Of a stretch of 64,000 nucleotides of DNA, positions 219 to 52,718 are shown piece after piece. Source of the DNA: a virus; the IMG/VR virus record IMGVR_UViG_3300027971_000043, positions 17,731 through 81,730 of that record. One strand, given 5' to 3'. The first letter of the stretch is position 1. Every line of letters begins with the position of its first letter. Under the pieces are notes generated by a model. It saw nothing but the letters and a program-made list of their open reading frames with translations, was not told where the DNA came from and did no database searches. The position numbers and the translations under genes are program-made.

Positions 219-219
219 A

Positions 220-471: not shown

Positions 472-502
472 TTCCTCATTTCCCCATTTTGTCCCAGCCA
501 TA

Positions 503-530: not shown

Positions 531-536
531 TGAATT

Positions 537-791: not shown

Positions 792-894
792 AAATAAAAA
801 GAAAAAGCTTAAGAGCTTAATCGATCACTCGCATCGACCACGCCAAGGCTTGCTCGATAAGGTTGCCAAGCTGGCGTTGTACCACAAGAACTAA
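784..894 (+). CDS. Very small lysine-rich protein
   Basis: A 36-residue frame from GTG at 784, overlapping the previous gene by 8 bases and ending 4 bases into the converging structural gene. It starts MAKNKKKKLKSLIDH and is strongly basic. The tight overlap on one side and convergence on the other support it, but it is short and could be chance. Confidence 0.4.
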   Translation: MAKNKKKKLKSLIDHSHRPRQGLLDKVAKLALYHKN

Positions 895-2225: not shown

Positions 2226-2239
2226 ATTTTCCTATCCGA

Positions 2240-3016
2240 CTATTTGATTGTGGCGTATCTTCCGAGTCCCGTTTTTTGTAGAGTGGGAGCTTCAAATTTT
2301 GATCTATCATAAGTTAAAGTTACAGATTTAGTATCTCCTCCACCAACTCTCAACTGTTCCGCCGCATTTCTATCCTCAAGTCCACTTACTTTTTGAGCTA
2401 CTTTTGTTGGGTCTAATTTACTCTGCATCCACGAAGCGGGTAACAAAGAGCCAGTCCCGTATATACCTTTAAATGCGCCAGCTTTTTCTTGACCCGCTCC
2501 TGTACCACCAGCAATTACCTGTTGAGCTGCCGAGCCAGCTTCAATTACTCCAGTTTTTGTTTTAGCCATTTCCTGAGCTTTCTGAGCTTCGGCAAAAGCT
2601 TTATCATATGTTGACTCTTGAGCTTTCATTTTACCAAGCAAAGCAGATTCTTGTTCGACTGCCTTAGTGATGCCAGATACAGCGCTTGGGTCCCAAGATT
2701 TTAATGGCCCCTGCTTACCTTGTACGTAGGCTGTTCCAGGCGAAAGGTATTGCCCAAGTATTGCCTCTCCCGCTTGAGAGCCTCGCGCTAACTCTTGTGC
2801 TGATTCATAAGCACTTTTTGGTCGCGGCTTTCCGTAGTTAGGGTTAAAATATTTATTCCAGTTATATGGGTCGAGCATTTCCGGAGTTAGTTTAAAATTT
2901 CCTTCAGGAATAGTGCCATCAGTGTTATATACGCCTCCTATTTTACCGGGCCCTCGATACCGTTCGTCGAATCGACTGTACGAACTAAGATTAGCAAATT
3001 TCCCGAGAACTGGCAT
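2240..3016 (-). CDS. Putative virion protein, 258 residues
   Basis: Soluble protein with an aromatic N-terminus (SSYSRFDERYRGPGKIGG) and an Ala/Gln/Lys-rich helical middle (residues about 115-185), ending in a basic beta-like tail. Located between known structural genes and a cluster of tiny basic proteins, so a virion role is inferred. No family recognised. Its start is 2 bases from the stop of the 45-residue gene upstream. Confidence 0.6.
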   Translation of the reverse strand: MPVLGKFANLSSYSRFDERYRGPGKIGGVYNTDGTIPEGNFKLTPEMLDPYNWNKYFNPNYGKPRPKSAYESAQELARGSQAGEAILGQYLSPGTAYVQGKQGPLKSWDPSAVSGITKAVEQESALLGKMKAQESTYDKAFAEAQKAQEMAKTKTGVIEAGSAAQQVIAGGTGAGQEKAGAFKGIYGTGSLLPASWMQSKLDPTKVAQKVSGLEDRNAAEQLRVGGGDTKSVTLTYDRSKFEAPTLQKTGLGRYATIK

Positions 3017-3017
3017 A

Positions 3018-3155
3018 TTAATACTTCCCTAAACCTCGACCTTTGTTCCGGACTTTTGGCATGACGTAAGGCTTCTTATCTACTTTAAGAGATGGCGATT
3101 TGTCGGTCGGCATCTTCGCATTCTTTTGGTTCATGTTAAGAGAGTAATTTTTCAT
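3018..3155 (-). CDS. Tiny basic protein, 45 residues
   Basis: The frame begins MKNYSLNMNQKNAKMP and ends KVRNKGRGLGKY; it is lysine-rich, without cysteines. It exactly fills the space between its neighbours (1 base to the downstream start, 1 base to the upstream stop), which argues for a real gene. It belongs to a run of small basic proteins that occupies 3.0-4.2 kb. Function unknown; DNA or RNA binding in the virion is possible. Confidence 0.55.
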   Translation of the reverse strand: MKNYSLNMNQKNAKMPTDKSPSLKVDKKPYVMPKVRNKGRGLGKY

Positions 3156-3156
3156 A

Positions 3157-3312
3157 TTATTTGTTCTTGGATTTACCGGCTGCACTTAAAGCAATCGCAA
3201 TGATTTGCGCTCTTGGGCGCGGTGTTCCACCAGCTCCGCGGGCTTTTCCTTTTTTCTTATTATCAGCGTAAAGTTCGCTGATGTTGGCTGAGACATTTTT
3301 ACCTAATGGCAT
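3157..3312 (-). CDS. Small basic phage protein, MPLGK start
   Basis: The frame is open further upstream, but the start is placed at the ATG giving MPLGKNVSANISELY (51 residues), because two neighbours also start MPLGK and this leaves a normal 10-base gap to the upstream gene. The second half contains PRPRAQIIAIALSAAGK, a motif of a recurrent family of very small phage proteins. Function unknown. Confidence 0.65.
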   Translation of the reverse strand: MPLGKNVSANISELYADNKKKGKARGAGGTPRPRAQIIAIALSAAGKSKNK

Positions 3313-3322
3313 AACTTTTAGT

Positions 3323-3520
3323 TTACTTGGACTCCTCTCTATCGTCAACACCATCCTCATTAACATCTTTGAAGGCACCGGGATCGCGGGTAAAAATTTT
3401 CTTAGCCAGCATATAGCGTTCTTCAGCAGACATTTCTGTCCACATTTCTGTCTTACCTCTTGGCTTCCAAAGGATTAGAGCAACAACAATAAAGACAAAA
3501 AATAAAACGGGCCAGAACAT
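3323..3520 (-). CDS. Membrane protein with EF-hand-like loop
   Basis: A 65-residue protein. Residues 1-19 (MFWPVLFFVFIVVALILWK) form one membrane helix. The C-terminus has DVNEDGVDDREE, which matches the calcium loop spacing D-x-N-x-D-G-x-x-D-x-x-E of EF-hand and dockerin sites. It overlaps the upstream gene by one base. A membrane-anchored calcium-binding protein is inferred; the partner is unknown. Confidence 0.6.
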   Translation of the reverse strand: MFWPVLFFVFIVVALILWKPRGKTEMWTEMSAEERYMLAKKIFTRDPGAFKDVNEDGVDDREESK

Positions 3521-3750
3521 TATTTACCTAACCCTGTTTTTTTCTTCCAGCTTATCCGTTCTGAACTCGTCTTTTTTCTGGCGGCTGAGTTACACATTGA
3601 CTTGGTGGGGCGACAAGCTGGATAACTACCACCACTGTCAGCCGACTTCCGGCCACATGGACCGCCTGTCTTACAGTTAATCCACCCTTTCCCTTTGTTC
3701 CTGGAAAACCAACCATGCAGGCCCTTCTTCTTTTCGAGCTCGAAGCCCAT
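3520..3750 (-). CDS. Small cysteine-rich basic protein
   Basis: A 76-residue protein with the pattern GWINC-x5-PCGRK, a YPACRPT turn and a further cysteine (SMCNS), then a Lys-rich tail. I recall this GW-x-x-C / PCGR / CRPT arrangement from short proteins of environmental phages and large DNA viruses; the biochemical role is unknown. The four cysteines could bind zinc. Overlaps both neighbours by one base. Confidence 0.65.
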   Translation of the reverse strand: MGFELEKKKGLHGWFSRNKGKGWINCKTGGPCGRKSADSGGSYPACRPTKSMCNSAARKKTSSERISWKKKTGLGK

Positions 3751-3899
3751 TATTTCTTCCCCTTGTTACCCCAGTTTGCTGCTCCAACTTTGCGACATCG
3801 AACAAGTGCACCACTGGCATAAGCGGATGGCCACACTTTGTAGCGAGCCTTTACCTTTTGAGTGCAAGCGTCGTTAGCTTTCTTTTTACCTAAAGGCAT
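3750..3899 (-). CDS. Small conserved basic protein, MPLGKKKAND type
   Basis: The frame extends to 4007 without a stop, but the start is placed at the ATG giving MPLGKKKANDACTQKVKARY (49 residues), which makes neighbouring genes abut. The core KVKARYKVWPSAYASGALVRC is a pattern I recall from small proteins in many environmental phages and some giant viruses. It has two cysteines and is very basic. Function unknown; nucleic-acid or virion association is inferred. Confidence 0.7.
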   Translation of the reverse strand: MPLGKKKANDACTQKVKARYKVWPSAYASGALVRCRKVGAANWGNKGKK

Positions 3900-3900
3900 A

Positions 3901-4167
3901 TTAACAACTCCAAAGAACTTTTCGGGCCCAATAATTAGCTGACAGTTTCCCATCACCCCCTTTAATCCCACCACTCCTAGCACAATAACTCTTTCGCCTT
4001 TTGGCACTATGATGCTGAGTAAAATCTTTCATTGAGCTATCTCCAAAATGAATAATTCTTTCTTGCCCGCCAGAGCAAGCTTTGACAACTTTCTTCTTGC
4101 CCGGCCTCCACGACTTGCGCGGTTTGTTGCAGGGCATGTCGGCTTTGCTGGGCTTCCCTAGAGGCAT
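3901..4167 (-). CDS. Conserved basic protein with SYCARSGGIKG motif
   Basis: An 88-residue protein starting MPLGKPSKADMPCNK. It carries KACSGGQERIIHFGDSSM, then HHSAKRRKSYCARSGGIKGG and ANYWARKVLW, a block I recall from a family of unknown function shared by phages and giant viruses. The start overlaps the stop of the glucosaminidase gene by one base. Probably a virion or DNA-associated protein, but this is inference. Confidence 0.7.
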   Translation of the reverse strand: MPLGKPSKADMPCNKPRKSWRPGKKKVVKACSGGQERIIHFGDSSMKDFTQHHSAKRRKSYCARSGGIKGGDGKLSANYWARKVLWSC

Positions 4168-4715
4168 TATCGCTCCTGTGTTTGACCAATCCTCGAATCA
4201 ATGACGTCTGAATCTAGGATCGGTACTTTCTTGAGGATCATATCCATGTCCTTTGAAATCCTTTGGAGATTGGTGGTGTAGGGCTGAAGGCCACCAGTAA
4301 AGTATCCTCCCTGCTTTAAGCCCGTTGCATATCCCGCTACGTTGGTCGCAGACAAAGCCCCGCTATATCGAGGCATCTTAAGTTTCCTAGTCCAGTCCTC
4401 AAAGAACTGGTTGGGGCTTTCATAAGTCTTGAAAGGTTCGATGGCGGGTGCGTTGTTTTCTCCTTCAGTTGTGGCCATCTTTACCTGAGCTTCTCCAGCC
4501 TTGGCTTTGACTCCGCCTAGATTACCATATTTTTTAGCCAGCTCGGACTCACCGTATCCTGACTCCAAAGCTGTCTGCGCCAAGACCCACGACGGATCGA
4601 TGCCCAAATCTGCTGCCGCCTTCATCGCCGGAGAAAACATCTTCTTAACGTACGCAATTTTCTTTTCGGCCTGCGGGCCTAGTTGCTGTCTCCAATCTTG
4701 GGTTTCGTCTGCCAT
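4167..4715 (-). CDS. Glucosaminidase-like peptidoglycan hydrolase
   Basis: A 182-residue protein matching the FlgJ/LytG glucosaminidase fold: SPAMKAAADLGIDPSWVLAQ, then ALESGYGESELAKKYGNLGG with the catalytic glutamate of the ALESGYG motif (about residue 52), an F-x-x-Y-x-S segment and a C-terminal Y-x-x-x-L-Q-R-I helix. It should cleave the glycan backbone of peptidoglycan. There is no signal peptide. It lies 13 bases after the giant protein in the virion block, away from the lysis cassette, so a virion-associated lysin acting during DNA entry is more likely than a lysis enzyme. Confidence 0.85.
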   Translation of the reverse strand: MADETQDWRQQLGPQAEKKIAYVKKMFSPAMKAAADLGIDPSWVLAQTALESGYGESELAKKYGNLGGVKAKAGEAQVKMATTEGENNAPAIEPFKTYESPNQFFEDWTRKLKMPRYSGALSATNVAGYATGLKQGGYFTGGLQPYTTNLQRISKDMDMILKKVPILDSDVIDSRIGQTQER

Positions 4716-4728
4716 GGGGTTATTCTAA

Positions 4729-7700
4729 TTACTTTCTTTCTGGAAACAAGATACCCTCTTGATTTTTTTCAAGTAGAACATTTTGTAGGATAGGATTTTT
4801 TATCGTCTTGTTGACTTGCTGCATAAAGGTGATGAATTGGGGTCTACTCATTTTCTCCAGTTGAGGAATAAATGGAGCTAGGAAGTTCTCTATTACAGGC
4901 CCAGCACGTTGCATCCATTCGTACTTTTCGTCATTTGTTAACTCTCGGCTGATTTGGAAAAAGTCATCTGGTGTTAGAGTAACTCCATTGGCAGCGGCAT
5001 CTTTAATCAAATCCATCATGGCATAATTTTTTAACGGACCTGGATCCCAATCTAATGCATATCGGTTAGCTGCAAACAATGAGATTAATTTATCATGTAT
5101 TGCCTGTTGGCTACGCTCTCCGTTGTTATAAGCCATACCGTCCACTCCGACTGTAGTGAGACGCCGTAGAAATGGTACAGTATTTGACATTTGTGTCCTT
5201 ATATTCCCCCCTAAGAAATCAAGATCTGGTCTCCCAATTTTTGACGCAAAAGGTATTGAGGACATAAATACAGAAAGAAGATTTTCCTGATAGGGTCTTG
5301 CGCTGGGTGAACCCGTTAAGCCATTATAAGCCTGTTCAATATCTCTTGCCGTTGCATAACCGGGTATAAAGCTGGCAGTTATATTTCCCGCCAACTTTAC
5401 TGTTTTATCTATTATCATTTTTGGGTCTGTTCTTTGTGGGCCAGGCGAGGTTAGAGCCATGATTGACCTCAAACCACTTAAGAATCCTACGTCCAACATC
5501 GCCAAAGTTGTGACCATCCCAGCCGCTAGCGTACCCTCCAAAGCAGCTTCTACTTTCGATCTCTTGGAATATCTAACACTTTCAACATAAGAGGCAATAA
5601 GAGTAAGAACAGCTTGTATGCCTTGAGGGAAGAATTCAAAAGAAACAAATCTAGGTTTACCGCTTTTAAATGTGCCCAGCTGAATAGACTTTAACTTTCC
5701 TCCCGCCGCAAGAAATGCTTCTCTTTGTGTTGGATCTGCCGGTCCGTTTAAGTGGATGTTATTTTCTGGGTCATCTTCTCCCGACATCGCAGGTAAAAAT
5801 CTTAATCCAATAAGAAAAATTCCCATAAGACCAGTAAACATTTTACCCAACAATAAGTCATGTTCAATTGTTCCGGGAGTAGGGGGAGGCACAAAATATT
5901 TACTATCTTTTAATTTTCCGGCTGATCCTCTAATAAAACGAATCTGAGAAATGATGGGTAAAAACTTTAGCCCCTCATTTGCCAAGGCTGATCCTGTCCT
6001 CAAAAACTTAAGTAGAACTTTAAGTGCTTTAGCTTTTTCCCCAAGATCGTTTACAGTTCCAGCTAAAAGACCAATATAACCTTCAAAATTATTTGTAAAA
6101 GAAGTTTGGGCTGCCAACGTTTGAGCTCTTTTTGTGATTTCTTTTACGGCATCTTCGTCCGGTCTATTCTGAGCTATAATCTCTTCTACCCGTAAAGTCT
6201 GCTCAGTCGGAGTAAGACTAAACTCTTTTGCCTCTGCTGCGGCTTTTGCTTCTGCCCGGGATCTAGCTTCCGGAGACATGTTCAATAATCTGGCAACCTC
6301 GGCTTCAATCTCTTCCTGTGTCGTTAGTCCCTGGTCTATGGCTACATTAGTTGCCTCTAAGACCTCGGCCATTTTTTTAGTCGATACTTTTATCAAAGCA
6401 TCTCCAGCTTGCATAGCTCTTCCAAACCAAATGTAAGGACCTAGTAGACCGTATTTTTTACTAATAGCCTTGGGGTCGAGAGGTAGTGTGTACTCTTTTC
6501 CAAATGCTTTTATTGGGAGTTCTGGCCTAATAGAACTTTGTCCCTTTCTATAGGCTTCGGCTTGGTTTACGATCGCTTCAAAAGTATTAATGCCGCCATA
6601 CTCCTGATTCAACACGTCGGAAATATCGGAATAATTACCGCTTAACATTGTATTTAAAGCTGCTGCGTATGCTTTTCCTTTTGGAGAAAAGATTGCTTGA
6701 TTAAGAGAAGGAAGAGCTGAAAGATAAGCTTTGCCTAATGCTTTTTCTTGTTCTTTGTTGAGCGCAGCTCCAATGGCATACTTTACTCCTCCAGCCGCGG
6801 TTAACAGAAAAGCGTTAAGTTCGGCGTTTAATAACGATCCGAACGCGTTGATACCAACAGTTCCAACTGAACTTAGTAGACCTGCGGTTTGATAATTAAT
6901 TAACAAATCAGACCAAACAACGGGAGCAACAAACTTAATGTATTGATACATTTCATTGATTGCTTTTTGTCTTATCATTCCTTTTGGCAATACACTCAGG
7001 GCTTCAATTTTTTTATTAAGTTCTTTGCGTTGTTCCTGAGTCATCTCGGGAAGTCCGAGTTGCGAATGCATCTGAACAAAAACGTCATCATCAGAAAGGA
7101 CTCCAAGATTTGCAGACTCAATAAGCTTGTCTAAAGCAGATCGTATCTTTCGAGTTTTGCGCTCTTTCTTCTTTTCAAAATTTTCTTTGATTCGTTTTAA
7201 GGCGTCTTTTCTCTCGCTAGCAATAAGTTCAGTCATCCCTTCGCGAAGGAAGTCGAGAACTTCTTTCTTTTGAGCTTCATCAAGATTAGTATTCTCGGTT
7301 AGCAAAGCCCCCATTTTATTTTCAAAGTCCATGATATCGCCACGGCTGGCTCGGATAAGACTACGTAGATTTGTCTTAGGTCCCCCAATAGACTCCAAAG
7401 CCCTAACGGTTTGCTTGAGGCTAGACACAGCAAAGGGTCTTCCAAACGCTTCTTCAATAAACGGTTCGAGCCCGATTAACTCTTGCTCATTGTAGTTGTT
7501 TCGAAGCGATTCCCGAACGTTGTTGATAAACTCTTTAACTTCTGGATACTGTGCAATCCGATCTTTAAGAACTTCGGCTTCGGTAGGTTTAGGTAGAGGT
7601 TCAAATACAGGTTGTAGCCCACCCATTTCTTTTGTGCGTTGGGCAATCAATCTTCGAGTCCGCATTGCAAACTCTTCAAGAGCATCCTTAACTTTTGGTT

Positions 7701-10700
7701 GTTTCTGGAGGCGAGCTGCTTGTTTTTGTAAAGCGTCTGCGGAAGCTTCGGCCAGGGCTAATTCCGGAGGAAGATTATTTGGAACTATTACAGGTGCTTC
7801 TTGAGCGGCTTTTGCTTTTGCTTGAGCAACTCTTTGGATTGCTTCTCCTCGCGTGGACGGAGGAGGAATAACTTCAGCAGCCTGACCAACTCTAGTGCCA
7901 GCTTCTCTCGCTCTCGCTTCTCTTAATGCTTTAGCTTGGAAGAATTCAAGGGCATAGGTTAGGGCAGAGTCAAAATAAAGTTCCAACTTTCTTCTTACAT
8001 TTTCTTGATTCTTTGCATCACGCACAACGGGAGCCAACATCACCAACCGTTTGATCTCATCAGCTGAAGCGGCTGTCTCCCGCGGATTTTCTGAACGTTC
8101 AATGATTCCTAGAATGACTCTACCCAAAGCTCTGGACTGATCTGGATCAAGGCGAATGTCATCTCCACCCATACCCGGCTCGGGGGCCGCCGCAATATCA
8201 GCTCCAAGCCACTCCGTCAAACCCTTACTAACTTCTTCGCTTTCAAGATAATCCGATATCACCGCTTGAATCTGCGATAATGTTCCACCCTTTTTGTTTA
8301 GATCAACTAGTTTTCCAAGTTGATCCTGAACTGCTTGCAGATTATTTCCTTTTATGGTTTTCTTAGCAGTCGTAAATTTTTCAGCAGCTCTTCGATTCGC
8401 ATCTTTTAATGCCATAGCAATTTCGTCATTTTCCTCTGCGTAACCTTGTAGTTTGCCTTTAAGCGTCTTATCTATTTGACGATACACAAAAAGTTTTGCT
8501 CTTTCGGGATTATCAAAAATTAACGAATCCAGTCCACTCCACATTTGAACTGCCCTTCCAGCTTCAGTCCCATACTTTTTAGCTGCAATCAGTGCAACAT
8601 CTATCAATTGACTTTCAGCAAATTTATCTGTTTTTGCTTTTTCTCTAAGCGTGTTCATTAGTTCAAAAGCAACTCCTGTTTGCACAGGAAGAGAAGCGTT
8701 AATATTTCCAGCTAAAAATTGTTGCAATGATTTATCAAATCCATTTTCTGCTATGTAATTTCTAGCGTCTTCTATCTGTTGTTCTTGTGATACGGATGTG
8801 TAATACCATTCATTTAAAAGCCTATCTTTATCCGCTCCTTCAGGAATTTTATCTAAAACATTTAAGGCAATATTTTTTACGGCTTGGCTTTCACGAATCT
8901 CGGGGGCTGGTACCGGTATGACTCGAGTAATTTCAGGTGGTGGAACTGGAATTGAAACTGTTTCCCCGTCTAAAGAAACTGAAGTTACAATCGGTTTTTC
9001 AGTCACAATCTCTGGGGCTGGAGTTAGCCGACGAGCATAATTGTCATATCCAGCCCTACCGATAGCCGCAATCAGAGCACCGCGATTTTTGTAAGTATAA
9101 TTCCTGCCGTCAAAAATAATTTCGTTACGATCCTCAAACATCTTGGCAACCGTATTTGCCACAGCTCCGGCCGAAGTCTTAGCTGTCGTTGGATAAGATG
9201 GGTAGAATCCAATCTTTACATTGTATCGGCTGTACTCAGAAGGTTCAACCAGATTGACTGGCTCAGTCGTGGCTATAAAAGCTACAGCTGGCAATGACTC
9301 ACCCGACTCTTCCATACCTTCCGCAATCTCAAGGGCTTTGTTAGCGATCCCGGGAAGGCTTGCACGTCCACCATCCATCACGGATTTAGTCGCGGCCCGG
9401 AATAAATTGCGCTCTTGATTGGTAATCATTCCGCGACGAGCTGCGACATCCAAGCCGTCAAGCCAGTCGTTCACGTCAACCGTCTTGAATAGATCGTCAG
9501 CTGCGGTGACTCCAAATACTCCGTCGGTTCGGCCTTCAAGATGATTCTCAATCATTCGATAGATTCGAAGATCGTAGGAGTCGAACTTGTTGGCTGGACG
9601 TGGCGATGTCGGGGAACGACCGGGTTCGGGCGCTGCAACCGGCCCTGGCGCTGAAGCGTCCACAAAATACTTAGAAGTCTTACGAAGATTAGAAATGGCA
9701 TCTTCGATTCCTTGACGCAACACCAAGCGATCCGTGGCTTGAGGAGCCAAACCCAACCCACGCTTGACCACAGTGGCCATGCTATCAAACCACACGCCGA
9801 GTCTGGCAAGAACGGACTTGGGTTCTTGACCGACAAGATCCTTAAGGCGTTGTGTCGCTCTGGCAATATCTTTTGGATCTACTGAAGTGACTTGTTCGGT
9901 AATACCACCTGTAAGATTTAGCTGCGATAATTGTCGGATACCTTCCATAGAAACCTGGTAAGAATCATTGGCCAAAGCTTTTATTTTTCCTTGAATAACA
10001 GGATCGGTAATGTCAGATCCAAGTTGAGAATTATAAAGCCTGGCAATAGCCAATCGAGTAGCTTGGCTCATACCGTCTCCAATGGCTGTTAGTTCTTCAA
10101 CTGGATCAAGTCCAAGTTCACGAAAATATCTGTACGTTTCAACGTGAATTGTCTCCTCCAACATAACTTTGGTTAAGTACGATTTAAAATCTTTTGGTGA
10201 TACCCGAGATTTACTAACTGCTAGTTTCTCGGGATTAATAATAATTGTGTCGGATTCATTATCGGCTCCAGCCTGAGCTGCTACGCTATGCTCCGCCATA
10301 GGGGATACCAAAACATTGTAAATACGAGGCTGACCTTTGGCGTCTTTGAAGGTGACCGTATTGTCTTTGTAGTTAGTTCCAAGAACGGAAGTTAGTTCCG
10401 TGTCCACAAACTTTTGTTGCTCGGCGGTCGCTTCGTTTGTTTCTCTAACCGGAGCCACAGCCTCTTCGGCTCGCAGACCTTCAAAGCCAGCACCAACAGT
10501 AGCGTCAAGCAACCGCAACTTGGCCCGCATACGACCGATAGTGTTCTGGTCAATCTCAGCCTGCGATTCGAGGAATACAATGTTGGGACGGCTGGCGCTG
10601 TCTACACGCCAGACACGATAGATAAGTTGAACCGCTTGAATCGCGCTGATCGGAGGAGATAGAATGATCATCTCTCGGGACTCGTCACCAAACTTGTCAT

Positions 10701-13700
10701 CCAGTTCGATTCCGGTTCCGCCCATTTCCTTGGTCGCAATTAGAACATCAGCCTCTCCCTCATTAAACGCAGCCATTGCTTGTTCCTTGGTCTGCTCTGA
10801 ACCAGTGTACATCCGGGCGATCTTGAGAGTCGGATCAAGCTTGGCGATTGCGGCTTCGAGTGACGCGGAAGTAGGATTAACTGTCTCGCCTTTAGAGTTT
10901 TCATCCGAAACAAATCCAACATATAGTACGGGTTTCTTGCCACGTTTGATTGCATCTACTGCTCGTTTAGCGGCTGCGTCAACTTTGTATTCTTCAAGCG
11001 CACGTTTCTGAGCTGCTGCCATTTGTCGCAAAGCCGAGATGTCCACGTTCTGTGTTCCACCATACATCGCCTTGATGTCCTCAAGCTGTTGCTTGATCTG
11101 ATTATCAAGAGGAACATCTTGGAACTCTATGTCGACCCCGTCCAGTTTGAGCGAGCGGGAACGCATGATTCCGTTCTTCGCCATTCCGTCGAGATAAGCC
11201 TCCAACCGATCCTGCATTTCGGTTTCAGTAACTCCTTCGGCCAATTGCCAATAGAATTTCTTTCCGCCCTTAAGAGCATATTTTTGGAATCCAAGACGAC
11301 TAATTAAAGCATCGGGCGATTCATTATCAAATATTCCAAGTCGGCCAAGCGACAGCAATTGATCCGGAGTTTCAAACGGAGTACCTGAGGCCATCAATGT
11401 GCGCCCTGCTTTGTTGGCAATGTCATCCATTAACACTGCCCAAGATCGTGTCTTCCCACTTTGAATAGCTTTGGATAGGTTACGGCCAGAGTGTTGCTCA
11501 TCCAAAAGAACAACAGTCTTGTCATCAATTAAAGGCAAAAGCTGTTCGAGATATCCAGAATTGTACGTGGTAACAAGCATCCGACCAGGAACAAACTCAA
11601 TTGGCAATCCCCTTCCGCTCTCGCCCTTGCCCCCACGAACCGCCAACGGAACGCCTAGAATTGTCGCATCCTTCTGAATCGATCCACCAATTTCTCCATC
11701 GTCCCAGTTCGGTGTAACCGCATCAGGAGCCGTTATATAAACAACCTTATATCCCTTGTTGAGATAGTAGGCTCCAGTCCCAAGCAACACTCGCGTCTTT
11801 CCAGTTCCCGGTCCGTTCGCCAAATAAAACGCCTTGTGCTTGGAGTTCTCGATTGTGGTAACAGCCGCGGCTACGTCCTGTGCTTGTTCTTTAGACAGAT
11901 TGGAAAGAACCTGTTGTCCCGCTGGAGCAAGAATCTTTTCGTTGAAAGATTTACCTAACTGGTTGCGGGGTTCGACGAAGGACTTGGGGATCGGGGTGCC
12001 ACGAGGGCGCTCAACTCCAGGTCTCCCGGTTGCGGCTGGCGGACGCTCAACAGTTCGTTCCACTGCTTTCCGCTCCGCTGGAACGGTTTCTTCAAGAACT
12101 CGCTTTGTGGTGGTAGCGCGCTCCGCTTCGAGCTCGGCGAGCCTTGCGCGAGCTTCCTCACGTCGATCAGCGGGCGTCTTGGCTTCAGGTCTTGGGGTTG
12201 GTAGTTGTTCTGGTTGTTCATATGTTCCTTCCTCGTTTATGGTTAATCCGCTGTCGCGCAGGATTTGGTCACTGACGCGAAGCAGGTTTGACCGGAAAGC
12301 AGCCGCAATTTTGTTCTTGGCTTCTCCCTCCGGCATGGCTTCCGAAGCCAGATAAGGCTCGGCAAGTTTGTTTAATGTGGCGACATAGGCATCGGCTTGT
12401 TTCTGTGAAATTGTTCCGTCCTCGGTAGATTGCCGAAGATTGGTATCAATGGCTTCAGTGAGTTCTGTGATGGAATCTGGGGTTAGTTTAGAAGCAGCTA
12501 CGCTTTCAATAAAGTTATCAAACGACCTTAACAGATCGCCTGATCGAGACGATTGAACTTCGCCAAGCAAAGTCTTGGCGGCAACTAACTCGGCATCATC
12601 AAAGAAATTATCGGCTTGCAACTGGCGGAACCGGTCAACATAAGGCTTGATCTGGTTGGCCGTAAGGTTACCTTCGCGTACAACTCCGGCCGGTTCCTCA
12701 ACAGCGCGAACCGGTAGTGTCCCAGCTCGTTGACTGTTTCGATAATTGTTTTCCAAGCCCTGAACAAACTTAGTTCTGACCGCGGGTTGAAGAGCGTTGA
12801 TGTTATCAATTGTTGTTCCGATCTTGGCCGCTTCCGAAGCCACGTTTTTTACATCGCCAACCACGGCATCAAATGCCAGCTTCTCGGCATCCGTGGCCAA
12901 AGAGTTTCGGAAAGGTTGCTTAAAGTTTTCGGCAAGGATGGCAAGTGCTTCTTGTCGTTGAGCCGCGGAAGGAACTTCGACTTGACCCTCCATTTGAAAA
13001 TCTGTTTCAGTCGCGTCGATCTGGTCGAGTGTCTCGTTGATTGCGCCGGCGACCGCTGGGTTAAGACCCTGTTCTTCCGCCAGTGTCTCGGCATCCACAG
13101 CCTGAGTCCGAAGCCCAGGAGTTTCCATGCTAACCGCCGCGCCAATTCCAACGCCAGCTCGCATGCGGGGAACAGCCTGACGAATGAAATCCCGAAGACG
13201 GCTATTGAAAATAGTGCTTAAGGAAAGATTGCCTTTACCTTGACGCAGTTCATACAGGAACGAATTGATTGTTCCGTTTGAAACTTCGTCTGCAATGTTA
13301 TACTTCTGGTAACCAGCCAACGACTTGCTCTGAAGGTAAGTGTTCTTACGTTTGATATAAGCCATCAAAGTCTCGGCAGGATTCATTATGTTTCGGCCGT
13401 TTTCATCAATCGCGCCAAGACTCTGGAGCAATTCAACCGTTGATGGGTTCTTTAGATTAAACACATCGCCTAGAGCATTTACATCATTCTCTCTGGGGTC
13501 GGGGGCTAGCTTCTGGAACTTCTGATAAGATGCTTGTTCGGGATTATTGATAGCCAAGACAACGTCAGGTCGGGCTTCTAGTTCGGGTGAAATCGCTCCG
13601 CTTTTGATTCCCGCATTAGTCTCTCGTTCAAACTGTCCGATCAAGCTGGCTACGCTTTGTTCTCCGCGAGCTCCGCGTTCCAACTCTCCCTGACCTTGCA

Positions 13701-15981
13701 TGGCCTGCAACTTGGCAAGCTGTTCTTCAAGGGCCGGAGTTTCTTCCAAAGGAGACTGCCTGATTTTGGTCTGCAAAGCTGTGATCTGATCGGAAATCTT
13801 TTTAGCCCTGAACTCAGCGGGTCTTTCCTCGGCAACCAACTCTTGTTGCTGGGCAAGACGAGTTTCCAACGCAGTCTGAATTTGGCTTGGTCCCAGATGC
13901 CTCGAAGCGATGGCCTCAATCTCTGGCATCGATCCAGCCGTGTCTAATAAATCGCTGATCTCATCGACCTGATCTTGTGTGATCCCTGGTTTGTTCTCGA
14001 TCTCCTGCAAGATTGCATCCTTCTCATCCTGCATAATCTCCGCAGGATCTTCCTTACCGATCCAATTACCCTCGGCATCCTTGACTCCTAGAACCTGATA
14101 TCGTGATCCGTCCTCACTAAGCTTTCCGTAAACGCGACCCTGACTTTCAAGCCAGTCAATCTTAGCTTGATTGGCGGGGGTGGAAGAAAGGTCAATCGAG
14201 GTAACTCCCTTTTGAAATACGTTGACTAACTCATTGAATGCCCCAATAACTTCCTCATCAGTTTCTGGAACTCCAGCTTCTATGGTCGGAGGAACTCCCA
14301 TTTGTTTTGGCTGTACTTGAGCCTGAGCTTCTGCCACTTTGCTTGAAAGCAAAGATTCAATCGCGCCTTGCTTAGCATTGTTAATCGCTTCATCGGCTAC
14401 CGCCGTAGTTTCGGGAGCAGTTGTTGGGTCAAGAGAAGCCCGAACATTAACAGCGTCAAAAAGAGCTTGGGCTTGAGGACTGTTCAGAGATTCTCGAAGC
14501 TCAACAATTTGTTGCATTTTCTGATCTTCTGGAATCTTGGGGTCGTTCTTAATTCCAGTGACAGTTTGACGGAGAGTATCCGCAAACTTGTCATTCGCCA
14601 TCTGATTAAGTCTTGCTCTACGACCAACAAACCCTTCGGCCAATACCATGCCAAGACCGATACCGCCGGAAGCGGCTAAACTTTGCGGAATCTGAGCAAT
14701 AGGATCTTGTCCACGGGCAATCGCGTCAATCACATCGGATGAAGTTTCTCCGAGAGTTGTTCCAATGACCTTAGCCGTTCCCTGAACAACCGGGGCAAAC
14801 GCAGGAAGTTTGGTCTCAAGAGCTTTAGCAACCATGTGATTGGTCAAGGCGCGATCGGCCACGTCTTCCAATCTATTGCCGGCTTCCTCGGAAAGGGCTA
14901 ATACGCCGGCCTCACTCACAATCGAAGCTAACCGTTGTCCCACGTTCAAATTACGCGGGTCTTGGTCGAGGGATTGGGAGGCTCCGACAACTGCATAAGT
15001 TGCGCCCTTGGACAGAGTCGTGGGAACTTTAATTGTCTGCCCCGCAATATCTGCGGCTTTGCCCAACAAGCCTGTTGCCCCAGCGCCAACTGCCATAAAT
15101 TGACCCAAAGAACCGGTGGCCAATCCAGCCAAAGTAGATGGCATGTAATTCTTTTGAATTACATCGTTGATCCCATTGGTCAAAGCGGCTCGACGGGCTA
15201 CTTGGTCAGGATCATTTTCGTCAACAATAATGTCTCCGATGGAAACAAAAGGAACGAAAGCATCACCGGATTGAACTGCAAAATTACGGAGTCCCGCGGT
15301 ACCAAGTTTCTTTGTCTTGTCACTCTGAAGGTCTTTGTAGTATTCCTGTGCTCGGGCCAGGTTCATTCCAACTTTCGGAGTATTCCACGCGCCAAGCCCG
15401 AACTCCATCGCGGGAGCTTGATCCTTAGGGGCGATAGATTTCCCAGCAGTTAATTCATCGGAATAGAGAGCACCAAGCTCAAGGGCTTTCGCAGCTTGGG
15501 TAGAGTCCTTGATTGTTCCAATGTAATTGCGGGATGCCAAACTTTCCTGCATGGCTTTGGCATCTTCATTCGTAATCCCGAGTCCGCTCTGCAAATAAGA
15601 TCCAATAACTTTACCCACACCTCCGACAGCAATTTTGGTAAGCCCTAACCAGTCATTGTTTTTTTCGGCATCAAGGGTGGCTTGGGAAGTAGATTTTATG
15701 TAATCATTAACATTCTTCTGAGCATCCTGCCACGACTGTGTATTAAAAGGAAGTTTACCTTCCTTAAAACGGGTGGCTGTTCCGAGTAAAAGATCGTTGG
15801 CTTTCGGGTTATCCCGAAGCTCCATAAGTTGGCTGGCTTGAGCCAAAGCCGAAGAAGGCTGGCTTAGTATAGAATCAAGTTCGTCCTGTTGCTGGGTCGG
15901 GGGTTGTCCAAGAATATCTCCGACAATGCTGTCAAGGCTATTAGGCAAACCAGCATCCAAAGGGGAAAGGGGATCTGCCAT
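4729..15981 (-). CDS. Giant 3750-residue virion protein with SF2 helicase core
   Basis: One uninterrupted frame of 11.25 kb. Residues about 1370-1810 hold a helicase core: Walker A GPGTGKT (1390-1396), DEQH box (1494-1497), a motif III-like MASGTPFETP, a C-terminal RecA-like lobe with ATKEMGGTGIEL (about 1745) and motif VI QLIYRVWRVDS (1785-1795). This resembles SNF2 and strawberry-notch helicases. EETIHVE (1942-1948) recalls metallopeptidase-like segments in phage polyvalent proteins but is not a clean HExxH. Long Ala/Gln/Glu coiled-coil stretches surround it, and the C-terminal quarter has hydrophobic segments (about 3030 and 3390). Size, domain mix and place among internal virion genes fit the large polyvalent proteins ejected with DNA. 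No RNA polymerase motifs were seen. Confidence 0.8.
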   Translation of the reverse strand: MADPLSPLDAGLPNSLDSIVGDILGQPPTQQQDELDSILSQPSSALAQASQLMELRDNPKANDLLLGTATRFKEGKLPFNTQSWQDAQKNVNDYIKSTSQATLDAEKNNDWLGLTKIAVGGVGKVIGSYLQSGLGITNEDAKAMQESLASRNYIGTIKDSTQAAKALELGALYSDELTAGKSIAPKDQAPAMEFGLGAWNTPKVGMNLARAQEYYKDLQSDKTKKLGTAGLRNFAVQSGDAFVPFVSIGDIIVDENDPDQVARRAALTNGINDVIQKNYMPSTLAGLATGSLGQFMAVGAGATGLLGKAADIAGQTIKVPTTLSKGATYAVVGASQSLDQDPRNLNVGQRLASIVSEAGVLALSEEAGNRLEDVADRALTNHMVAKALETKLPAFAPVVQGTAKVIGTTLGETSSDVIDAIARGQDPIAQIPQSLAASGGIGLGMVLAEGFVGRRARLNQMANDKFADTLRQTVTGIKNDPKIPEDQKMQQIVELRESLNSPQAQALFDAVNVRASLDPTTAPETTAVADEAINNAKQGAIESLLSSKVAEAQAQVQPKQMGVPPTIEAGVPETDEEVIGAFNELVNVFQKGVTSIDLSSTPANQAKIDWLESQGRVYGKLSEDGSRYQVLGVKDAEGNWIGKEDPAEIMQDEKDAILQEIENKPGITQDQVDEISDLLDTAGSMPEIEAIASRHLGPSQIQTALETRLAQQQELVAEERPAEFRAKKISDQITALQTKIRQSPLEETPALEEQLAKLQAMQGQGELERGARGEQSVASLIGQFERETNAGIKSGAISPELEARPDVVLAINNPEQASYQKFQKLAPDPRENDVNALGDVFNLKNPSTVELLQSLGAIDENGRNIMNPAETLMAYIKRKNTYLQSKSLAGYQKYNIADEVSNGTINSFLYELRQGKGNLSLSTIFNSRLRDFIRQAVPRMRAGVGIGAAVSMETPGLRTQAVDAETLAEEQGLNPAVAGAINETLDQIDATETDFQMEGQVEVPSAAQRQEALAILAENFKQPFRNSLATDAEKLAFDAVVGDVKNVASEAAKIGTTIDNINALQPAVRTKFVQGLENNYRNSQRAGTLPVRAVEEPAGVVREGNLTANQIKPYVDRFRQLQADNFFDDAELVAAKTLLGEVQSSRSGDLLRSFDNFIESVAASKLTPDSITELTEAIDTNLRQSTEDGTISQKQADAYVATLNKLAEPYLASEAMPEGEAKNKIAAAFRSNLLRVSDQILRDSGLTINEEGTYEQPEQLPTPRPEAKTPADRREEARARLAELEAERATTTKRVLEETVPAERKAVERTVERPPAATGRPGVERPRGTPIPKSFVEPRNQLGKSFNEKILAPAGQQVLSNLSKEQAQDVAAAVTTIENSKHKAFYLANGPGTGKTRVLLGTGAYYLNKGYKVVYITAPDAVTPNWDDGEIGGSIQKDATILGVPLAVRGGKGESGRGLPIEFVPGRMLVTTYNSGYLEQLLPLIDDKTVVLLDEQHSGRNLSKAIQSGKTRSWAVLMDDIANKAGRTLMASGTPFETPDQLLSLGRLGIFDNESPDALISRLGFQKYALKGGKKFYWQLAEGVTETEMQDRLEAYLDGMAKNGIMRSRSLKLDGVDIEFQDVPLDNQIKQQLEDIKAMYGGTQNVDISALRQMAAAQKRALEEYKVDAAAKRAVDAIKRGKKPVLYVGFVSDENSKGETVNPTSASLEAAIAKLDPTLKIARMYTGSEQTKEQAMAAFNEGEADVLIATKEMGGTGIELDDKFGDESREMIILSPPISAIQAVQLIYRVWRVDSASRPNIVFLESQAEIDQNTIGRMRAKLRLLDATVGAGFEGLRAEEAVAPVRETNEATAEQQKFVDTELTSVLGTNYKDNTVTFKDAKGQPRIYNVLVSPMAEHSVAAQAGADNESDTIIINPEKLAVSKSRVSPKDFKSYLTKVMLEETIHVETYRYFRELGLDPVEELTAIGDGMSQATRLAIARLYNSQLGSDITDPVIQGKIKALANDSYQVSMEGIRQLSQLNLTGGITEQVTSVDPKDIARATQRLKDLVGQEPKSVLARLGVWFDSMATVVKRGLGLAPQATDRLVLRQGIEDAISNLRKTSKYFVDASAPGPVAAPEPGRSPTSPRPANKFDSYDLRIYRMIENHLEGRTDGVFGVTAADDLFKTVDVNDWLDGLDVAARRGMITNQERNLFRAATKSVMDGGRASLPGIANKALEIAEGMEESGESLPAVAFIATTEPVNLVEPSEYSRYNVKIGFYPSYPTTAKTSAGAVANTVAKMFEDRNEIIFDGRNYTYKNRGALIAAIGRAGYDNYARRLTPAPEIVTEKPIVTSVSLDGETVSIPVPPPEITRVIPVPAPEIRESQAVKNIALNVLDKIPEGADKDRLLNEWYYTSVSQEQQIEDARNYIAENGFDKSLQQFLAGNINASLPVQTGVAFELMNTLREKAKTDKFAESQLIDVALIAAKKYGTEAGRAVQMWSGLDSLIFDNPERAKLFVYRQIDKTLKGKLQGYAEENDEIAMALKDANRRAAEKFTTAKKTIKGNNLQAVQDQLGKLVDLNKKGGTLSQIQAVISDYLESEEVSKGLTEWLGADIAAAPEPGMGGDDIRLDPDQSRALGRVILGIIERSENPRETAASADEIKRLVMLAPVVRDAKNQENVRRKLELYFDSALTYALEFFQAKALREARAREAGTRVGQAAEVIPPPSTRGEAIQRVAQAKAKAAQEAPVIVPNNLPPELALAEASADALQKQAARLQKQPKVKDALEEFAMRTRRLIAQRTKEMGGLQPVFEPLPKPTEAEVLKDRIAQYPEVKEFINNVRESLRNNYNEQELIGLEPFIEEAFGRPFAVSSLKQTVRALESIGGPKTNLRSLIRASRGDIMDFENKMGALLTENTNLDEAQKKEVLDFLREGMTELIASERKDALKRIKENFEKKKERKTRKIRSALDKLIESANLGVLSDDDVFVQMHSQLGLPEMTQEQRKELNKKIEALSVLPKGMIRQKAINEMYQYIKFVAPVVWSDLLINYQTAGLLSSVGTVGINAFGSLLNAELNAFLLTAAGGVKYAIGAALNKEQEKALGKAYLSALPSLNQAIFSPKGKAYAAALNTMLSGNYSDISDVLNQEYGGINTFEAIVNQAEAYRKGQSSIRPELPIKAFGKEYTLPLDPKAISKKYGLLGPYIWFGRAMQAGDALIKVSTKKMAEVLEATNVAIDQGLTTQEEIEAEVARLLNMSPEARSRAEAKAAAEAKEFSLTPTEQTLRVEEIIAQNRPDEDAVKEITKRAQTLAAQTSFTNNFEGYIGLLAGTVNDLGEKAKALKVLLKFLRTGSALANEGLKFLPIISQIRFIRGSAGKLKDSKYFVPPPTPGTIEHDLLLGKMFTGLMGIFLIGLRFLPAMSGEDDPENNIHLNGPADPTQREAFLAAGGKLKSIQLGTFKSGKPRFVSFEFFPQGIQAVLTLIASYVESVRYSKRSKVEAALEGTLAAGMVTTLAMLDVGFLSGLRSIMALTSPGPQRTDPKMIIDKTVKLAGNITASFIPGYATARDIEQAYNGLTGSPSARPYQENLLSVFMSSIPFASKIGRPDLDFLGGNIRTQMSNTVPFLRRLTTVGVDGMAYNNGERSQQAIHDKLISLFAANRYALDWDPGPLKNYAMMDLIKDAAANGVTLTPDDFFQISRELTNDEKYEWMQRAGPVIENFLAPFIPQLEKMSRPQFITFMQQVNKTIKNPILQNVLLEKNQEGILFPERK

Positions 15982-15991
15982 AAACCAAACT

Positions 15992-16019
15992 ATTCAAGCA
16001 GATTCCTGCCCGACGTCAA
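15992..16019 (-). promoter_or_regulatory. Weak promoter-like site before the giant gene
   Basis: On the minus strand TTGACG (16019-16014), a 16-base spacer and TTGAAT (15997-15992). The start codon of the giant gene is 10 bases further on. The -35 and spacer match the family in this window but the -10 is poor, so the call is tentative. Confidence 0.25.
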
Positions 16020-17662
16020 CGATTTTGTCCCTGGTTAACTACGTTTGACTCAGGTGTTTGGCCGAGTCCAGGGAGTTCTCCCAACTGCTGTTTAAGCTTG
16101 GCAATAACTTCCCTTACTGGTCTACCTCGATATAGGGCGTCCGGATTGGCGTTGTACATGTTAACAACTTCTGCAACCTTGGACATGGTTTCCGGGGATA
16201 ATTGAACTTTGGTTGCGCCTTGAGCAGAAGGAGCGGTGGGAATAGTGGCAGTGCCAGCCTCGGCAACCATTGGAGAATCAATTTTGAGTAGTCTGATTGG
16301 GATTTGACCGCTTTGTGCAGTCTCCTGATTGGGTTGGGCCGCGGCGGGAGTCTTGCCGGGTTGAGGGGTTGTTGGAGTCTGCCCGGGTTGAGCGGACGGG
16401 GCGGGTGAAACTGGGGGAAGCCCACGAGTTGACATTGCCTCCATCATTTGAATCATAGGATTTGCGGAGGGAAGGTCTAAAAGACCTCTCTGATTTACGT
16501 CGTCTAACCACTTCTCGTATTCTTTTCGTTTCGCTGGATTTATTTTTCCAGTAAGAGGATTGATTGCAGAATCCCAACCAACCGTAGCAGAAAGATCGGG
16601 AGGGGCAAAAGGAAATACTCGCTCTGGTTTTCCTGTTTCTTTATTTATTACTACTGGACCCACTTCAGGATGTTGAGTTAAAACGTTTGTTATAATCTCA
16701 TTTGCCCTAGTTTTCCAGCTTAATATTTCTTCATTGGCTTCCGCTTTAGTAGTTTGAAACATGAGTCTACTTTTTTCGTTGATATAATTTTCTGACAATT
16801 TATCGTCTTTTCCGGGGTATCTAGCTTGCAACTCATCCCATTGTTTTTGAGCAGACTTTGGAAGTTCTCCTACAATCGCTCGAGTTTCGAATTGTCCCAT
16901 GGCAGTACCAAGTTCAGCTTTTTGATATTCGTCCTGCTGCTTTGCTTTACCTTGAGCAATTTCAGAATACATTTTAATTAAGTTTTCATCTTTATTCCCT
17001 AAGTTATAAAACTCTTCATTTCCTTTAGACAATTCATTCTTTAAACGATCTGGACCAATTTTTGTGACGTCTAATTCATTAATCCGATTGATGACCGCAA
17101 CAGCTTGAGGACGAGTTCTTACATTAGTAAAGTCTTGTTCCAACATTCTTTTGTTCGCAACCAAAGCCAAGGCGTTTTTATAGGCATCGGTTTGTTGTTT
17201 TATATTTAGACCCGAAGCATAACCCTTGTTAGTTGCTTCAGCCACCTTAAGACCATCTCCGCTTTCAATAGCCAGCATCAATTCCGATTCAAGTCGAGCG
17301 GCTGAAACCTCTTGCTCTCTAATCGCATTTTTTTGATTCAGTTCCAGAAGAGCTTTTGTCTGTTCAAAGCCAAACTTTCGTTCATCTAAGTCTCGATCCA
17401 AAGCCTTGCTTTGCGCTTCGGATTGCGCTTTTATTAGCTGACCAGCATTTTGAGCATCGGCTGATGCAATTCGAGCTGTGTTGATCTGCGCTTCTTGTGC
17501 CTGATTTGCAGCTTGTTGATCTAATTGAGCGTAGGACAAAGCCAGTCTATTCTGCTCTTGTTGATCCTGCTGGAACAATTGTTGTTTTTTCAAGTAGTTC
17601 TCGCGCAAATCACCAAGGATTCCCCGCACCTGGCCTACATAATCTGGAGCTACTGGTGTCAT
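16016..17662 (-). CDS. Coiled-coil internal virion protein
   Basis: A 548-residue soluble protein. Residues about 20-160 are Gln/Ala/Glu-rich with heptad character (QQDQQEQNRLALSYAQLDQQ), a long coiled coil. Residues about 400-470 are a Pro/Gln/Thr linker (QPGQTPTTPQPGKTPAAAQ), followed by a short C-terminal domain. Located between the giant protein and another internal-type protein, matching the position of ejected core proteins in short-tailed phages. No enzymatic motif seen. Confidence 0.65.
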   Translation of the reverse strand: MTPVAPDYVGQVRGILGDLRENYLKKQQLFQQDQQEQNRLALSYAQLDQQAANQAQEAQINTARIASADAQNAGQLIKAQSEAQSKALDRDLDERKFGFEQTKALLELNQKNAIREQEVSAARLESELMLAIESGDGLKVAEATNKGYASGLNIKQQTDAYKNALALVANKRMLEQDFTNVRTRPQAVAVINRINELDVTKIGPDRLKNELSKGNEEFYNLGNKDENLIKMYSEIAQGKAKQQDEYQKAELGTAMGQFETRAIVGELPKSAQKQWDELQARYPGKDDKLSENYINEKSRLMFQTTKAEANEEILSWKTRANEIITNVLTQHPEVGPVVINKETGKPERVFPFAPPDLSATVGWDSAINPLTGKINPAKRKEYEKWLDDVNQRGLLDLPSANPMIQMMEAMSTRGLPPVSPAPSAQPGQTPTTPQPGKTPAAAQPNQETAQSGQIPIRLLKIDSPMVAEAGTATIPTAPSAQGATKVQLSPETMSKVAEVVNMYNANPDALYRGRPVREVIAKLKQQLGELPGLGQTPESNVVNQGQNR

Positions 17663-17665
17663 AAA

Positions 17666-20757: not shown

Positions 20758-20766
20758 AGATCCTTT

Positions 20767-38851: not shown

Positions 38852-40582
38852 TTAACCTAAAAACGAAGATGTGGACACGGCTTGGTCTAATTTCTTTACT
38901 TGCTTTTGCCAAGAATCTCTTATTTTACCCCCAAAAAGAGAACCTGCTTGAATGCCAAGTCTTTGCCTGGCAAGGTCAAGCCCAAGGAAAAAGGCGTCGG
39001 CTAAATCGGGTGATCGGCCAAGACGAAGTTTGTAGTCTCGCTTGGGCTCAATAGTGACCTTACCTCCCGCTGTGGTTGTATACTTTCGACCGGTCATCTC
39101 TTTGGCTAAGTCGGGGAGTATACCTTTAAGCTGGCCCGACCTCATATATTCAACTCCCGAAAACCACAGTTCGGTAACGCGGTTAGTATACTTATCTAAG
39201 CCTCGAATGGGATTAGTAATGCTAACGGGCAAAGCGGATGCTTTTTCTCCAAACTTGATTCGTACAATTCTTGGGGACCAAAGCTCAGCCAAGATGTCGC
39301 AAAACGGATCGCCTGCTCCAGTAGCGTCTATGGCTAGCCGTTCAGGAGGTACACCGGATTCATTGCATAACCGAATAACTTCTCGGGCAATCTGAAAGTT
39401 TCTGGGTTCTGGTTTGGTAACATCTTCTCTTAGGTGATGGAATTTATGCAATGCTACGGCGGGACCAGACTCCTCGCTCTGACCATATTTAATAATGGCG
39501 AGAACTGATCTATCTCCTCCATTTGTGAATGCCGGATCAAATCCAGCCAGGAACATAGGAGTATTCGACCATCTGGGTTCTTTGGCGACATCGTACTTTC
39601 TGAAATCGGCTTCCGAATAAATGCCCTCTTCAGCCCCAACAGGAGCTGGAAAACTTCTTATGAATCTCCAGAATGACAAGGAGTTTTCTCCCTCGTTCTC
39701 AATTGCGTATTTTACTTGCTTGGAGGTTAACAAAAACGGCCATTTATCATTGTGCTCGATGTTGGGTGTTTTAAGTCCGTCTAAGTGAACGCATTTCCCC
39801 GTCTTGGTATCCCACTCATCGGCGTCTACTGTGATTGAATTCCAACCGTCTTTTGGCGTGGAGAACACTCCAAATGGATCGTACTGCGAATTGAAATTAC
39901 CTAGGGCGACGCATTGAAATTGAGGGTTAGCATTAAGATTATTAATAGCCTCAAAGACAGAGTTGGTAACGTCGGTGGCCTCGTCAATAATTAGAAACAC
40001 TCTTTTATTCTTTAAACCAATTAGTTTGGCGGTTGCTTCTTTTTCCTTGTCCGGGCTGGAGGGAACCAAGGTTATGGAGGATCGATCCGAAGCTTCGCCG
40101 GACTCAGATACGTCCAGCACAATCTTACCCATCGAGTCAATTAACTTTCCGGGAAGTCCTGGAACCTGCATATACCGCTCGCGTATTGAACCCCATAAAC
40201 GCTTTCTAGCTTCGCGAACGCTGGTCGTAGTAACCAGCACAAGAGTTTCATGCGGGGCGCACAGCCAATTAACAAGACCCCACATGGCCATAGTAGAAGT
40301 TTTAGCTGAGGACTTTGGTCCGGAAATGGCTAGATAGTTATGTTCGCAAGCTCGCTCAATCATCCAGTCAGCCCAAGGGTGCCAATGAAATCCGTTTTTG
40401 CTTTTAGTTTTGTGGTATGGCCATAAAATATCTACCACATTTTTAAAGTGCTGAGCCTTGCCCAAACCTCCATCTTCCGGGCGCAAACCCCATTTGAAGG
40501 CGAGCAATTCAATGTCGAGGTCGCCAGCACCATCGGGCCAGGACTTTCCATATTTCTCTATAGGCAAGGGACTACTCTGCAT
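38852..40582 (-). CDS. terL: Terminase large subunit
   Basis: A 576-residue packaging motor. The ATPase domain has a variant Walker A, GPKSSAKT (residues 88-95), and Walker B VFLIIDEATDV (about 205). The nuclease domain has AGFDPAFTNGGDRS (first acidic residue), LAIDATGAGDPFCDI and SPDLADAFFLGLDLA, the usual RNase H-fold aspartates. The start is placed at ATG 40582; an in-frame GTG two codons earlier is also possible. A region with facing TTGACA boxes lies just upstream. It is the first gene of the virion block. Confidence 0.9.
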   Translation of the reverse strand: MQSSPLPIEKYGKSWPDGAGDLDIELLAFKWGLRPEDGGLGKAQHFKNVVDILWPYHKTKSKNGFHWHPWADWMIERACEHNYLAISGPKSSAKTSTMAMWGLVNWLCAPHETLVLVTTTSVREARKRLWGSIRERYMQVPGLPGKLIDSMGKIVLDVSESGEASDRSSITLVPSSPDKEKEATAKLIGLKNKRVFLIIDEATDVTNSVFEAINNLNANPQFQCVALGNFNSQYDPFGVFSTPKDGWNSITVDADEWDTKTGKCVHLDGLKTPNIEHNDKWPFLLTSKQVKYAIENEGENSLSFWRFIRSFPAPVGAEEGIYSEADFRKYDVAKEPRWSNTPMFLAGFDPAFTNGGDRSVLAIIKYGQSEESGPAVALHKFHHLREDVTKPEPRNFQIAREVIRLCNESGVPPERLAIDATGAGDPFCDILAELWSPRIVRIKFGEKASALPVSITNPIRGLDKYTNRVTELWFSGVEYMRSGQLKGILPDLAKEMTGRKYTTTAGGKVTIEPKRDYKLRLGRSPDLADAFFLGLDLARQRLGIQAGSLFGGKIRDSWQKQVKKLDQAVSTSSFLG

Positions 40583-40588
40583 AATCAC

Positions 40589-51735: not shown

Positions 51736-51744
51736 TGATTCGAA

Positions 51745-52711: not shown

Positions 52712-52718
52712 GCGGGCA

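Follow-up and report, generated by a model that had tools for sequence, protein, structure and literature searches.

A giant late phage protein with a predicted SNF2-like motor and an almost certain overprinted gene in its linker

Introduction

The locus described here raises the question of why a phage should place a helicase-like motor in the middle of a 3750-residue protein encoded among its late genes. Such a protein is costly, taking up ~16% of a genome of ~69 kb, and the role that giant virion motor proteins play on arrival in the cell is mostly untested outside P1. SNF2-type ATPases, one of the two helicase families found in polyvalent proteins, travel along double-stranded DNA without unwinding it (PMC5512222). 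The window, i.e., the whole stretch of DNA analysed, is 64,000 bases long and spans positions 17731-81730 of a virus record of 81,730 bases (IMG/VR record IMGVR_UViG_3300027971_000043). A preliminary description of the window had proposed a helicase delivered with the phage DNA, possibly to pull DNA in or to fight host defence. We examine how far sequence comparison and structure prediction carry this proposal, and report a second coding frame within the giant gene.

Results

The record and its late gene block

The 81.7-kb record appears chimeric between strains, in that the assembly overruns one genome length and continues through a related strain: parts of its first 12.6 kb are collinear with window positions 50.5-64 kb at 77-97% identity. 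The repeat unit is ~69.1 kb and the longest related contigs are 67.6-70.5 kb, consistent with a true genome length near 69 kb. The giant gene is located in single-copy sequence and has full-length relatives from independent contigs, so the findings reported for it are independent of the chimera. Positions 1692-12605 of L002 (record bases 1-17800) are a diverged collinear copy of the right end of the window, 51737-64000. A trypsin-like serine protease with a PDZ domain (Trypsin_2, 7e-30) is encoded at window positions 50495-51484 (+) and at L002 positions 29-979 (+); the two versions occupy corresponding places and are 31% identical over 270 residues, between flanks that are 77-97% identical.

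The late block begins with the large terminase (38852..40588, minus strand; PHROG terminase, 2.3e-10), and the giant gene (4729..15981) shares its strand with the terminase, the tail and virion structural genes and the endolysin. It stands apart from the replication block, as had been noted, on the strand and in the position of late genes. The replication block contains a family A DNA polymerase and its own SF2 helicase (40944-42245, +), with matches to Helicase_C (1.4e-12) and ResIII (3.9e-8); the preliminary description was right to place a helicase there, but its SNF2 label finds only a marginal match (0.019). A DUF2800/PD-(D/E)XK nuclease (3.3e-27; 42519-43391, +) follows directly after this helicase; in phage DSL-LC04, a HepA helicase is likewise followed by a PD-(D/E)XK nuclease.

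Gaps of only 13-34 nt separate the giant gene from its neighbours. The adjoining glucosaminidase proposed earlier is indeed found 13 nt downstream, as a 182-residue glucosaminidase/endolysin (4167..4715, minus strand; Pfam Glucosaminidase, 1.1e-20; PHROG endolysin). Directly upstream lies a gene for a 548-residue protein (16016..17662, minus strand), in an order that is conserved in the relatives, where proteins of ~405, ~330-540 and ~505-530 residues precede the giant. The setting among "internal virion proteins" holds as far as the late, virion-gene strand is concerned, but the upstream proteins of 548, 483 and 405 residues have no significant family match, so this designation describes their position. 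Further along the same strand, window positions 894-2225 encode a 444-residue virion structural protein with 65-67% identity to marine Synechococcus myovirus proteins (phrog_1645, 463 bits). As the phage otherwise has no cultured relatives, this suggests a receptor or decoration protein gained by horizontal transfer. The tail block at 20335-22788 (minus strand) is mosaic, with proteins of 140 and 665 residues that are 88-91% identical to those of contig L007 (the 665-residue protein over 419 residues), and 65% and 39% identical, respectively, to those of L003 (the latter over 241 residues).

Because this gene order matches that of Bcep22-type podoviruses, whose giant protein is present in virions, delivery with the phage DNA is the best reading of the layout, and the giant is probably packaged. 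A position in the late block would suit an intracellular late protein serving replication, packaging or assembly equally well; yet the replication block has a separate SF2 helicase beside the PD-(D/E)XK nuclease and together with the DNA polymerase, and the layout is that of phages whose giant is a virion protein, so we consider an unpackaged giant unlikely.

An SNF2-like motor in a 3750-residue protein

The giant is encoded by one uninterrupted ORF with an ATG start and zero internal stops, on the minus strand; the preliminary description, with whose single 3750-residue gene this agrees, named no strand. Homologues, full-length or partial, are found in seven IMG/VR contigs (L003; L005; L007; L008; L009 with L004; L010; L012), several of which are 57-71 kb long. 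Cultured phages yielded no relative of the giant (GenBank phage collection, DNA search and tblastn, the last tblastn giving chance-level matches only), nor did bacterial genome contigs, and the new contigs returned by motif-pattern searches for distant relatives are chance matches only.

Motifs, Pfam, alignment and Foldseek searches of the PDB place an SNF2-like SF2 ATPase module at residues 1340-1840 (10462..11964, minus strand). Motif I, GPGTGKT (residues 1390-1396; 11794..11814, minus strand), and motif II, DEQH (1494-1497; 11491..11502, minus strand), are invariant in the relatives, and motif VI, QLIYRVWR (1785-1792; 10606..10629, minus strand), is conserved with I/V variation only; all three lie at the residues originally reported. 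The core motifs are intact in six of six relatives that possess the full helicase, with L010 ending within it, and the region is under strong purifying selection (dN/dS of 0.036, window versus L003, residues 1340-1840). With the motifs invariant and selection this strong, their occurrence cannot be put down to chance.

Profile searches are divided on this point, with ResIII above its curated Pfam cut-off in the relative L005 (9.5e-6) but all matches of the window copy below threshold (AAA_34, 3e-4; Helicase_C, 1.2e-3; Strawberry-notch Helicase_C_4, 0.011). AAA_34 together with Helicase_C_4 would make the Strawberry-notch subtype a candidate. An AlphaFold model of residues 1335-2300 has a mean pLDDT of 52, with parts of two RecA-like lobes reasonable, and its top Foldseek matches in the PDB are the SWI2/SNF2 remodellers DDM1, Chd1, ISWI, ALC1 and SMARCAD1 (E from 6e-10 to 2e-9, probability 1.0), with low TM-scores because lobe placement in the model is unreliable. 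The preliminary description had let its helicase claim stand or fall with structure prediction, and these SNF2 matches (E of 6e-10) sustain it. The SF2 core is, we conclude, genuine and SNF2-like, the model placing it with the double-stranded DNA translocases of that class.

Conserved blocks, cassette hot spots and the C-terminal region

Only ~500 of the 3750 residues fall in a recognisable domain, and the unexplained part is therefore nearer 3250 residues than the ~2000 first estimated. Conservation in the giant is highest not in the helicase but in a block at residues 850-1010 (12952..13434, minus strand), which reaches 94% mean pairwise identity at 901-950, has no match in Pfam, PDB or fold searches and is predicted to be helical; this prediction covers residues 780-1260 at low confidence, the AlphaFold model of that region being too weak to use. 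Where long coiled coils flanking the core had been proposed, the analysis yields this helical prediction and a charged stretch at residues 1254-1341, the linker that holds the overlapping gene. By eye this most conserved block looks sigma-like (STIFNSRLRDFIR, SMETP), and RapA and HepA are SNF2-type motors (PMC5512222), from which one could picture a delivered jump-start factor that contacts host RNA polymerase through residues 850-1110 and recycles the polymerase with its motor, as RapA/HepA do. All formal tests of sigma similarity are negative, however, and we hold this reading to be very improbable; a sigma-70-like identity for residues 850-1110 was rejected in Pfam, in PDB profile searches, in hhalign comparisons with E. 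coli sigma factors and in the fold search.

Alignment also delineates a conserved domain with an invariant EETIHxE at residues 1842-2130 (9592..10458, minus strand), which has no family match in Pfam or the PDB. A zincin metallopeptidase was considered for this domain and rejected, as the motif is EETIH, there is no HExxH, and matches in Pfam and the PDB are absent.

Insertions in the relatives define two cassette hot spots, which, like the overlapping gene described below, are absent from the preliminary description. At the first, after residue 1841 (10459..10461, minus strand), L003 and L009 carry ~124 extra residues of no recognised type and L008 carries 91 with a match to the DNA-binding FtsK-gamma winged helix that lies below cut-off (5.4e-5). 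The second, at residues ~2328-2353 (8923..9000, minus strand), holds ~220 residues in L005, which include a YHGT motif and match PARP/ADP-ribosyltransferase (ART) weakly (0.05), and 92 extra residues in L012. These two weak matches hint at a second effector-type domain in relatives, the window copy having the motor only. Judged on the giant gene, the window is closest to L003. Over its N-terminal two thirds the window giant shares 57-92% identity with L003 and L005, and its C-terminal 700 residues are only ~57% identical to either, which points to mosaicism.

The hydrophobic C-terminal end noted in the preliminary description resolves, in a hydropathy scan, into two segments (residues 3375-3402, 5776..5859; residues 3483-3504, 5470..5535; both minus strand), which are present as claimed but short and modest. 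Together with the adjoining cell-wall hydrolase, the late-block position and the translocase class, they would suit a motor in genome entry, i.e., a virion-borne double-stranded DNA translocase that is released through the tail, anchored at its C-terminus and pulls the remaining genome in. We judge this unlikely, given that no ejection system known to us is documented to use an SNF2-type motor, that the would-be anchors are so slight, and that the nearest giants described are linked to antirestriction (PMC5512222, PMC9144972).

A second coding frame in the linker before the motor

A routine dN/dS scan of the giant gene brought up a sharp synonymous dip at residues 1260-1340, where dS is 0.13 relative to L003 and 0.31-0.34 relative to the other relatives, and is high or saturated elsewhere. 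Amino-acid divergence is not reduced in this region. We attribute the synonymous collapse to a second reading frame. Recent recombination as a source of low dS is ruled out, since the giant frame changes its amino acids no less there than elsewhere. Among seven late genes nearby, likewise compared with L003, none has a comparable dip, the lowest windows being 0.45-0.57. A second low-synonymous window within the giant gene, at residues 2341-2381, was not reproduced in an independent pair and was discarded.

The frame in question is an 88-codon ORF plus stop in the +1 frame (11955..12221, minus strand), contained within giant residues 1254-1342, a charged linker just before the helicase. Its ATG spans the giant codons TAT GAA of residues 1254-1255, and all eight sequences share this ATG, a length of 88 sense codons and a TAG stop at residue 1342. 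In all eight, a Shine-Dalgarno-like region ends 5 nt before the ATG, reading GAGGAAGG or, in two of them, GAGAAAGG; in the window it is GAGGAAGG (12227..12234, minus strand). Across the giant gene, this is the longest alternative-frame stretch that is open in all compared relatives, although the chance of such an open frame (P ~0.01 per sequence) is unremarkable by itself.

The pattern of substitution is what identifies it as coding. In two independent pairs from separate branches of the group, codons for the same amino acid differ far less often inside the overlap than elsewhere (window-L003, 9 of 67 versus 0.49, p=2.7e-9; L005-L007, 8 of 61 versus 0.57, p=2.1e-12). Differences at codon positions 1/2/3 between the window and L003 number 702/405/1849 outside the overlap and 16/7/9 inside it; changes in the overlap shift to position 1 of the giant frame, which is the third position of the +1 frame. 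The overlap dN/dS is 0.20-0.58 in the +1 frame and 0.70-1.28 in the giant frame. An RNA structure behind the constraint was considered and rejected (folding z of -0.25 versus shuffles, unfavourable covariation, empty Rfam search). This +1-frame pattern, with folding, covariation and Rfam giving no sign of an RNA structure, argues that the region encodes a small protein under selection. From these comparisons the ORF is almost certainly a real overprinted gene, and we infer that it is translated; in the giant frame, those bases serve as a charged linker under almost no constraint.

We also weighed whether the +1-frame element might be a tail reached by programmed +1 frameshifting, giving a motor-less form of residues 1-1342, or else an element acting as RNA or DNA. 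From residue 1248 on, the compared relatives keep the +1 frame open, and an SD-like sequence can stimulate frameshifting, but no slippery sequence is seen by eye, and an invariant ATG followed by AA(A/C) behind a well-placed Shine-Dalgarno fits initiation. Pairing of the SD region with the ORF end into a helix is possible, and would be what an RNA element requires; against it stand the folding z-score and unfavourable covariation term given above, and against either kind of nucleic-acid element the codon-position signature, which is that of a coding frame. We regard these alternatives as quite improbable and proceed with an overprinted gene. The SD region (12225-12236) can pair with an invariant segment near the end of the gene (11973-11983, minus strand), and such pairing, which shows no covariation, might control translation of the gene.

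In the window, the 88-residue product is MNNQNNYQPQDLKPRRPLIDVRKLAQGSPSSKRSALPPQSEFLKKPFQRSGKQWNELLSVRQPQPGDLELSALVAPRSPSPSSNPATS; it contains 13 basic residues, 6 acidic ones and 26 Pro/Ser. Conservation is best at LPPQSEFLKKPF, together with SGKxW and GDLEL, and the product has no homologues in Pfam, PHROGs or phage genomes.

Discussion

The reading that we favour, with somewhat more confidence than doubt, is that of a packaged polyvalent giant that enters the cell together with the DNA, turns an SNF2-like motor against host defence, and carries in its linker an overprinted gene for an 88-residue protein. By analogy with known virion giants, the protein would be expressed late, packaged in the particle and brought into the cell alongside the DNA, where the SF2 motor would track along the incoming double-stranded DNA, driven by ATP. 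We infer packaging, ejection and action on DNA in this way, with antirestriction as the outcome: movement of the motor would most likely clear, block or shield against restriction complexes and other DNA-bound defences, and the swappable side domains at the two hot spots would adapt the giant to its hosts. A recognisable methylase is absent, so protection would rest on the motor or on domains without a recognised family.

The basic, Pro/Ser-rich 88-residue protein would be translated from an ATG and Shine-Dalgarno of its own, probably during the late phase as well; our best guess is a small partner produced alongside the giant in late expression. That it is the giant's dedicated partner, as an assembly or capsid-targeting factor, a co-injected effector or a brake on the motor, is a tentative suggestion that we would sooner doubt than adopt; were it so, motor and regulator would be encoded by the same piece of DNA. 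As a phage coding frame the overlapping gene has firm support, and standard gene callers are likely to miss it; its presence suggests looking for hidden genes in the linkers of other giant phage proteins. A methylase-free giant with natural cassette variants also makes the role of the motor separable from DNA methylation.

Rz1 inside Rz is an embedded +1-frame phage gene, and Rz1 is annotated in phage DC1. Like Rz1, the gene described here is a small same-strand +1-frame gene with its own start and stop inside a late gene; unlike Rz1, it is set into the linker of a giant motor and its product has no homologue. The product contains no cysteine and hence no lipobox, and is therefore not a spanin. 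To our knowledge, no such gene-within-gene arrangement of motor and regulator has been described in a polyvalent giant.

Giant virion helicase proteins, on the other hand, are an already described kind. JC1 gp69 (4515 residues, DarB-like) was detected in purified virions by mass spectrometry with 51 unique peptides, and the giant of JC1 is preceded by a 510-residue virion protein, gp68 being found in virions (PMC9144972). P1 DarB is packaged via its N-terminus and is believed to enter the cell (PMC9024508). In DC1, a gene for 528 residues is followed by a 4650-residue transglycosylase/helicase/methylase giant (gp67) and then by lysis genes. Like the Bcep22-type giants and P1 DarB, the protein described here is a large late protein with an SF2 motor, and like the former it is encoded by the gene that closes the virion module, behind one for a protein of 510-550 residues and ahead of lysis genes. 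The 548-residue upstream neighbour is the positional counterpart of the 510-residue virion protein of the Bcep22 type, with no sequence match to DC1 gp66. Unlike the Bcep22-type giants and DarB, our giant has no methyltransferase and no transglycosylase match, and it has cassette sites and an overlapping gene. The methyltransferase motif [NDS]PP[YFW] is absent from the giant, its relatives and the ORFs of at least 150 codons in the record; polyvalent SF2 motors are usually accompanied by a methyltransferase. BLASTP and region HMMs find no homology to P1 DarB, DdrB or DarA or to DC1 gp67. Lacking both a methyltransferase and homology, the giant falls outside the DarB family, and what it appears to share with DarB-type giants is its way of working.

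Polyvalent proteins (Iyer et al.) offer a further frame of comparison. Whereas the window giant has no Pfam family above cut-off, no HExxH peptidase and no methyltransferase, it is, like them, a multidomain giant near late genes with an SNF2-type motor and exchangeable domains (the ART-like piece in relatives), and by context and modularity it fits, as judged from its sequence, the polyvalent-protein concept.
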